Positions 20,013-48,905 of a stretch of DNA of 49,977 nucleotides are shown here, piece by piece (position 1 is the stretch's first letter; the number at the start of each line of letters is the position of its first letter). The notes under the pieces are model-generated. The model saw only the letters and a program-made list of their open reading frames with translations. It was not told the DNA's origin and ran no database searches. The translations under genes were made by a program, and so were the position numbers. This stretch comes from Vulcanimicrobiota bacterium (GTDB taxonomy: Bacteria; Vulcanimicrobiota; Vulcanimicrobiia; Vulcanimicrobiales; Vulcanimicrobiaceae), in contig JAFAXS010000123.1 of the NCBI GenBank assembly GCA_019240755.1, forward strand, positions 1 to 49,977. Reading direction: 5' to 3'.

Positions 20013-20549
20013 ATGCCTGCAATACTCGCCTCCGCTATTATGTATGCGTATGCGGCGACGCCGCAGACCGCTGCGATTCACGCGGAGAACATCGAGGCAA
20101 AGAATCGCGTCGTCGTTAGGCGCGTGAACGTCGTGGGCCGTTACGCTGCAGTCCTCACGAGCGGCGGAAGAATTGAGGGCAAGCTCAACAACGATCCAAT
20201 TCTGCTCGAGCGCTTCTCGTTCGGATGGCAGCCACGAGGGGTTCTCAATTCCCGCTGTAGTTTAAATTCGCGCAGCCTGAACTTAACGCTAGAGCGTCGT
20301 TTATTGATCGGAATGCCATGGCCCAAGGACGACCGGCCATGCCGATCGGAGTCCCGCGATTATGGACCGCCGGCCGATGTAGAAGCAGTACGCCGCGTCA
20401 TGCGCGGACCTTTCGTTCCTCATGTGATCGTTTCCGGAGACTGGGGGCTTGGCGAGTGGTATGGCGCAGGTGGAGGCGAATCGTTGTACCACAAACGCGG
20501 GACAGCGTTGGCGGCTGGTAGAGAGTGGCGGCGGAGCCCTGGGTGTTGA
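20013..20549 (+). CDS. Exported protein of unknown function, probably frameshifted near its 3' end
   Basis: A 178-codon frame with a signal peptide (MPAILASAIMYAYA) and a compact domain: VVVRRVNVVGRYAAVLTSGG, PILLERFSFGWQ, then VIVSGDWGLGEWYGAGGGES. After GGGESLYHKRG the frame runs into low-quality sequence (TALAAGREWRRSPGC). A +1 shift near 20499 instead gives QRWRLVESGGGALGVEEM and NRVPQSAWCV, which reads like a natural continuation. So the gene was probably broken by a one-base change, or the sequence has an error. The shifted frame runs into the repeat at 20623, so its own end is also unclear. Family not recognised. Confidence 0.5.
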   Translation: MPAILASAIMYAYAATPQTAAIHAENIEAKNRVVVRRVNVVGRYAAVLTSGGRIEGKLNNDPILLERFSFGWQPRGVLNSRCSLNSRSLNLTLERRLLIGMPWPKDDRPCRSESRDYGPPADVEAVRRVMRGPFVPHVIVSGDWGLGEWYGAGGGESLYHKRGTALAAGREWRRSPGC

Positions 20550-20622
20550 GGAGATGCGAAAAAACCGCGTTCCTCAATCCGCATGGTGTGTTTTCGGAAT
20601 CGTCGGCGCCAAATGCGCTCAA

Positions 20623-20669
20623 AAAAACGAGGCACCGCATTACTGCGGCGCCTCGCGCGTCTCGATGTG
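20623..20669 (+). repeat. 47-bp terminator-like repeat, copy B
   Basis: Forty-four of 47 bases match copy A at 19774-19820. The stem here (20629-20654) has one A:C mismatch. About 17 further bases after the repeat (CGACGGCCCGATACGT) also resemble the sequence after copy A. It lies just behind the frameshifted secreted-protein gene, suggesting it terminates that gene. The rest of 20550-20794 shows no other gene. Confidence 0.65.
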
Positions 20670-20794
20670 TCGACGGCCCGATACGTTGCCGACGATATCA
20701 CATCTGGACTGACTTCCCCGGTGCCGAACGAACTGCGGCCGGCAAGGCTCGCTCAGAGGATTATGCCAATCCCTACACGCAGCGGTTCGTTTGT

Positions 20795-21154
20795 ATGTTG
20801 GATGTTGTTTTAAAGAAGTTCGATTCGCCCGATGAAGTGCTGGAGTTCGAGAAAGGCCGGTTCGAACTCGTGCGATTGGGTGGCATGACGATCGGGCGCG
20901 CGACCTACCAGCCGGGATGGCGCTGGTCCGTGCACGTGGGGAAAGCGACGGGGAAATCTGTCTGTGACGTCGAGCATGTCGGCATGGTCGTCTCGGGCTG
21001 CGCGACCGCCGCCATGGCCGACGGTCGCGTGATCGAAATGCGAGCGGGTGACGTGTTCTACGTTCCACCCGGACACGACAGTTGGGTCGTCGGCGACGAA
21101 CCATACGTGTCGTTGCACTTCCTAGGCACCGACCGCTACGCGCGCAAGGAGTAG
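20795..21154 (+). CDS. Small single-domain cupin protein
   Basis: A 119-residue protein with the cupin beta-barrel pattern: GWRWSVHVG, a CDVEHVGMVVSGCATAAM segment, GRVIEMRAGDVFYVPPGHDS and VSLHFLG. The fold binds a metal or small ligand. The first motif's usual two His are partly replaced (WSVHVG, EHVG), so metal binding is uncertain. No clear ribosome site precedes ATG 20795. Its stop is four bases before the apparent start of the YjbR-like gene, with AAGGAG spanning its own last codons. Confidence 0.75.
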   Translation: MLDVVLKKFDSPDEVLEFEKGRFELVRLGGMTIGRATYQPGWRWSVHVGKATGKSVCDVEHVGMVVSGCATAAMADGRVIEMRAGDVFYVPPGHDSWVVGDEPYVSLHFLGTDRYARKE

Positions 21155-21160
21155 CGTACG
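21146..21160 (+). promoter_or_regulatory. Strong Shine-Dalgarno site pointing to an ACG start
   Basis: AAGGAG at 21146-21151, then six bases (TAGCGT), then ACG at 21158-21160. The following codons are the expected N-terminus of a YjbR/MmcQ protein. This decides the start of the next gene. Confidence 0.65.
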
Positions 21161-21565
21161 GCCACCTGGAGCGACGTCCGGCGAATAGCGATGACGCTGC
21201 CGGCAGCCGAAGAGATCGTTAGCCACGGTCGTCCGGCCTGGACGGTCAACAAGAAGTTTTTCGTGTGGGACCGACCGTTGCGCAAATCCGATTTGGCCGC
21301 GCTGGGCGATGCCGCGCCTGATGGCCCAATCTTGGGCGTCTACACGGGCGACCTCGAGTTGAAGGACGTACTGCTCGCGAGCGATTCGAGCGTTTTCTTT
21401 ACGACGCCGCACTTCGACGGCTATCCGGCGATTTTGGTATGCTTGAAAAAAGTGAACCCGAAGAAGTTGAAGGAGATCGTCGTCGAGGCATGGCTGGCTC
21501 GCGCGCCCAAGCGCGCGGCGGACCAGTACCTGAGTGGTGCTTCGGGCGCCCGAAAAAAGCGTTAG
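21158..21565 (+). CDS. YjbR/MmcQ family protein, apparently started by ACG
   Basis: A 135-residue protein if begun at ACG 21158. From there it reads TATWSDVRRIAMTLPAAEE, the normal N-terminus of the YjbR/MmcQ (double-wing DNA-binding-like) family, and continues with GRPAWTVNKKFFVWDRPLR and FDGYPAILVCLKKVNP. The first standard start, ATG 21191, would remove the conserved first helix (WSDVRRIA). A perfect AAGGAG six bases before the ACG supports the upstream start. Either ACG initiates, or an ATG was mutated or misread. Function of the family is unclear. Confidence 0.8.
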   Translation, partial: TATWSDVRRIAMTLPAAEEIVSHGRPAWTVNKKFFVWDRPLRKSDLAALGDAAPDGPILGVYTGDLELKDVLLASDSSVFFTTPHFDGYPAILVCLKKVNPKKLKEIVVEAWLARAPKRAADQYLSGASGARKKR

Positions 21566-48130: not shown

Positions 48131-48149
48131 TCATCCTCGTCGACCGCCG

Positions 48150-48905
48150 CTTCGCCGCGCTCTGATCACGGGCGCGGCGAGTGGCCTCGCCGCCGGCATA
48201 GCGCCGGCCCTCGCGCGCGATGGTTTTGCACGCATCGCGATTACCTATCGCAACACGTTGCCGCACGCGACGCTCGCCGCGATCGAAGCCGCGGGCGCGC
48301 AAGGCGTCGCGCAGCGGCTCGACTTCCTGGACGATGCGGCCGAGGTTGAGAAAATCCTGAACGAAATGATCCGTGCTTTCGGCCCGTTCGATACCCTCGT
48401 TCACGGCGTCGGGCCACTGGTTGCGAAGCGCTTCGCGGCCTCAACGCTCGAGGATTACCGGTTGGCATTTGAGGGCAACGTGCGCAGCGCCGTGCTCGCC
48501 GCTCGCGCGACGCTGCCGGCGATGCGGGTCGCCGGTTTCGGCCGCGTCGTCTTCTTCGCCGCCCACGGCGCGGCAAACAGTCGTTCGTTTCGCGGCCTTT
48601 CGTTCTATCAAGCCGCAAAGAGCGCGTTGATCGTCTTCGCGCGAACGCTGGCGATCGAAGAAGCGCCGAGCGGCATAACGGTCAATCTCGTAGCGCCGGG
48701 CGACATTTCCGACAAGCGCATCGACCGCGTGGAGGCCCGCAAACGTACGGCGCTCAATCCGCGGGGTCGCGCCGGAAGTTATGAAGACGTCTCGGATGCG
48801 GTGCGATTTCTCGTCGCCGAAGAGCGTGACTTCATCACGGGCGCCGTCATCGAGGTGACCGGCGGTTTGCAAACCTCCGCGGAGCGAAAGGCACAGGACA
48901 AATAA
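48150..48905 (+). CDS. Short-chain dehydrogenase/reductase lacking a standard start
   Basis: A Rossmann-fold oxidoreductase. From 48150 the frame reads LRRALITGAASGLAAGIAPA, the cofactor-binding opening (the last Gly of TGxxxGxG is Ala here), then VHGVGPL, SFYQAAKSAL (catalytic Tyr and Lys) and NLVAPGDIS. No ATG, GTG or TTG occurs in frame between the stop at 48069 and TTG 48258, which would delete the Rossmann opening. So the start is non-standard, or a frameshift or substitution removed it. Substrate unknown. It ends 30 bases before the aminopeptidase. Confidence 0.75.
   Translation, partial: LRRALITGAASGLAAGIAPALARDGFARIAITYRNTLPHATLAAIEAAGAQGVAQRLDFLDDAAEVEKILNEMIRAFGPFDTLVHGVGPLVAKRFAASTLEDYRLAFEGNVRSAVLAARATLPAMRVAGFGRVVFFAAHGAANSRSFRGLSFYQAAKSALIVFARTLAIEEAPSGITVNLVAPGDISDKRIDRVEARKRTALNPRGRAGSYEDVSDAVRFLVAEERDFITGAVIEVTGGLQTSAERKAQDK

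Follow-up and report, generated by a model that had tools for sequence, protein, structure and literature searches.

The window, a stretch of 49,977 nucleotides, belongs to the 174-contig draft metagenome assembly of a soil bacterium placed by its relatives in the Eremiobacterota, and carries in succession a cupin gene, yjbR and the gene for glycyl-tRNA synthetase, with the first two and the features at their junction all lying on the forward strand. The upstream ORF (20759-21154, or 20525-21154 in its longest form) encodes a small cupin-domain protein with a Pfam Cupin_3 match above cut-off, and ends at TAG 21152-21154. The same gene order is found in the closest relative, genome G007 (contig JAFAQW010000270.1; 82% identical), where the product of the gene upstream of yjbR is 87% identical to the cupin protein and yjbR starts with GTG. 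The yjbR/MmcQ-family gene of the window, present in a single copy in the genome, runs from 21158 to 21565 (135 codons plus stop) and has ACG (21158-21160) at the position of its ancestral start codon.

Between 21120 and 21200 the codons preceding CGT ACG read GCG CGC AAG GAG TAG, with CGT at 21155-21157, and those following ACG read GCC ACC TGG AGC GAC GTC CGG CGA ATA GCG and then ATG at 21191. The Shine-Dalgarno-like AAGGAG (21146-21151; a six-base match) can thus be read directly in the sequence six nucleotides ahead of ACG, as the sequence-only reading had reported, and the same six bases are the K-E codons that close the cupin ORF. The same reading had taken ATG 21191-21193 (residue 12) for the first standard start, and the listed ORF indeed begins there, at the first in-frame ATG, GTG or TTG. 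Missing from it was the fact that the cupin stop codon lies in the yjbR frame, so that, barring readthrough, the conserved N-terminus and its helix could be started only at CGT 21155 or at ACG 21158. Readthrough of the TAG, fusing the cupin and YjbR domains into one protein, might be imagined from the shared frame and from the mere TAG CGT that separates the two ORFs, but in G007 yjbR is one base out of frame with its cupin gene and has its own GTG, and no cupin gene was found beside yjbR in the loci of other congeners; we consider such a fusion very unlikely, close to negligible.

Identity and predicted fold of the YjbR product

The protein read from ACG onwards scores 27.9 bits against the PF04237 (YjbR) profile, slightly below the curated cut-off of 30.1 (E 3.7e-6), with the match beginning at residue 13. 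An NCBIfam profile search gave no match and phmmer found nothing among PDB sequences, whereas fold comparison did return matches. The AlphaFold model, built from 48 aligned sequences, has a mean pLDDT of 93 and places the first helix at residues 4-11; its top solved Foldseek matches are Deinococcus radiodurans DR2400 (2a1v; DUF419) and Escherichia coli YjbR (2fki), with a probability of 1.00 and a TM score of about 0.6. By the same comparison the predicted model shows the CyaY-like, double-wing fold of YjbR/MmcQ, published work having ascribed to the family a CyaY-like fold and a double-wing motif for DNA binding (PMC7641849). The window gene shares with both solved proteins their fold and length, as well as a helix at the N-terminus, where the ancestral start lies, and differs from YjbR/MmcQ members (PF04237, DUF419) in its ACG start and its sub-threshold Pfam score. 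It is an ordinary YjbR/MmcQ-family gene.

The model also bears on where translation would begin. A start at ATG 21191 would remove helix 4-11 exactly, in agreement with the earlier claim that the first helix would be lost, and would yield a 124-residue protein. That ATG is the first standard in-frame start and the Pfam match begins directly after it; on the other hand, it has no Shine-Dalgarno-like sequence ahead of it, the codons upstream are conserved at the protein level, the matching codon in G007 is CTG, and the helix that would be dropped is confidently predicted. Translation from this codon thus appears to us distinctly improbable.

The yjbR start codon among relatives

Among the relatives whose N-terminus could be aligned, 98 distinct ones in all, the codon at this site is ATG in 65 and GTG in 32, the one exception (L072) having a different, longer N-terminus; within the genus ATG is likewise the commonest (eight, against four GTG). 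The conserved start codon and the conservation of the N-terminus together mark 21158 as the ancestral start site, and since ATG or GTG occupies this very position in relatives, ACG is the derived state. By comparison of sequences the ACG looks like a single change at an ancestral start position, or like an error of the assembly, seen in one draft genome, and not like a new type of translation. The codons after ACG had been described as the family N-terminus, and both the sequence and the relatives bear this out, with the proviso that the first T of the peptide quoted at the time is ACG itself.

A conserved mechanism of starting at ACG was considered and rejected: ACG occurs at the yjbR start in none of the 98 relatives. 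The sequence-only reading had left the choice between a start at ACG that is real if non-canonical, a recent mutation and a wrong base call, and had itself named relatives with ATG at this codon as refuting evidence. The canonical codons of the relatives favour the latter two options and leave a lasting ACG start without support; the strain itself may still initiate at ACG to a low degree.

Finer comparison with G007 shows a one-base length difference exactly at the start, its start region reading TAGCGCAGTGGCG against TAGCGTA-CGGCC in the window. We infer as one economical history an ancestral TAGCGYATGGC, in which T was replaced by C in the window while G007 gained a G. The same difference invites another reading, in which ACG stems from a wrong consensus or base call, or from a minority variant picked in the assembly, and the true start is either ATG, its T read as C, or GTG accompanied by a one-base indel. 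In its favour, no relative has ACG, a single transition separates it from ATG, the codon found most often here within the genus, and the assembly is a draft of many contigs. Consensus error rates are typically low, however, the surrounding ORF and the neighbouring genes are intact, and the prior chance that an error should strike just this start codon is small, even if the site was chosen for its oddness. We regard this explanation as a serious possibility, if not the one we would choose. A tally of split genes, tried as a gauge of how good the assembly is, was dominated by shadow frames and was set aside.

Downstream of the start the gene shows the marks of constraint. The ten codons after it differ between the window and G007 by five synonymous changes and by no amino acid, and omega over the whole gene is about 0.05, a value obtained with near-saturated synonymous sites and averaged over the entire divergence, which says nothing on expression since the change. 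Where the two proteins do differ, congeners agree with each of them equally (10 vs. 10), so that the window branch carries no surplus of amino-acid changes, a result that speaks against decay of long standing. Real loss of the start codon, with yjbR silenced and beginning to decay, would fit the poor quality of ACG as a start and the dispensability of the family, matched in only 35 of 99 family-level genomes; with the frame intact, omega low and the branch changes balanced we hold it to be unlikely, while noting that a very recent loss would look alike.

In a separate observation, several actinobacterial yjbR genes (L046-L110, from Micromonospora and others) carry a -10-like TANNNT about six bases before the start, a placement that suggests leaderless transcripts.

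Possible initiation at ACG and near-cognate starts in the genus

The placement of AAGGAG is not typical of chance: in 304 kb of the genome a match of at least six bases to AAGGAGGTGA, within the spacing window used, precedes only 0.5% of ACG trinucleotides. Even so, AAGGAG with exactly six spacer bases stands before four of 16,892 ACGs. Of 52 conserved gene starts, a rough set, just 15% are preceded by a match of at least five bases. In G007 the sequence ahead of the yjbR GTG is the weaker AAAGG, and the pairing of the stronger motif with ACG fits the reported trend for stronger Shine-Dalgarno sequences to accompany weaker start codons (PMC5622118).

Among the 30 loci scanned of 46 tRNA matches in this incomplete draft, every tRNA-Met gene has the anticodon CAT and the tRNA with anticodon CGT is classed as Thr; no unusual initiator tRNA was seen in these 30 loci, with coverage complete only above the 16 lowest-scoring matches. 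Rare non-canonical starts in bacteria include the AUU codons of infC and pcnB, and Hecht et al. in 2017 reportedly measured all 64 codons as starts. In E. coli, initiation at ACG reached 0.1-1.5% of that at ATG in one reporter and varied in other contexts (PMC6925171). The window gene resembles the AUU genes and the experimental E. coli ACG starts (PMC6925171) in combining a near-cognate codon with a Shine-Dalgarno-like sequence, and differs from them in being known from the sequence of one uncultured assembly and in being shared by no relative. On these grounds weak initiation at ACG 21158 is plausible.

We therefore tentatively prefer, at somewhat short of even confidence, a reading in which an ancestral ATG or GTG start of yjbR changed to ACG in this lineage only and weak but real initiation persists there. 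Ribosomes that finish the cupin ORF at TAG 21152, or that bind AAGGAG, would start at ACG 21158 with the initiator tRNA at low efficiency, and full-length YjbR would still be made, at a reduced level. This reading draws on the canonical start in 97 of the 98 relatives, conserved synteny and the GTG of G007; on the purely synonymous changes in the first ten codons, the low omega and the balanced branch changes; on a six-base Shine-Dalgarno-like match at suitable spacing and the weak ACG starts of E. coli (PMC6925171); and on the loss of helix 1 should translation begin at ATG 21191. Against it count the occurrence of ACG in one assembly only, where the transition may have arisen in the consensus or from a minority variant, the K-E codons as a further explanation of AAGGAG, and the normal CAT anticodon of all identified tRNA-Met genes. 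Weak real initiation and a consensus error or minority variant are the two leading readings.

A survey of start codons compared about 207 genes from 304 kb of the genome with 2.0 Mb of congener G006; the gene set contained shadow-frame ORFs, and the 41 candidates it first gave were judged by eye. yjbR was the only ACG case, and several genes lacked ATG, GTG and TTG at their conserved start. For recO (L293, G000:C164:17709-18452; L294-L310) the start is CTG in 15 of 16 genus genomes, this one included, and CGG in G015; in most genomes a GGAGG- or GAGGA-type sequence precedes CTG, and in this genome no ATG, GTG or TTG could supply the conserved N-terminus, all of which points to a conserved CTG start. 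In an SDR-family gene of the window (48135-48905) the first 61 codons of the open frame include no ATG, GTG or TTG; at the corresponding start position six congeners (at least 6 of 16 genomes) carry CTG and two carry TTG or GTG, and the window has CCG. A nucleotidyltransferase-like gene (L311, G000:C162:418-1149) starts with CTG where congeners have ATG or GTG.

Taken as sequence patterns, these cases suggest that near-cognate CTG starts are used in the genus, and they would make tolerance of ACG a little more likely, a comparison limited by the mismatch of ACG lying at the second position, unlike that of CTG. A broader relaxation of start-codon selection in the genus, with CTG conserved in recO and the SDR gene and the yjbR ACG as a real, tolerated extreme, seems to us improbable.

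Automatic annotation would place the start of yjbR 11 codons too far downstream, and a conserved helix would be missed. The yjbR ACG alone is a small finding, and the CTG starts of the genus, that of recO in particular, may be of wider interest. If reads confirm the codon, it would represent a natural ACG at a bacterial start site shown by relatives to be ancestral, and would offer a simple test case for the Shine-Dalgarno strength and translational coupling that a near-cognate start needs.
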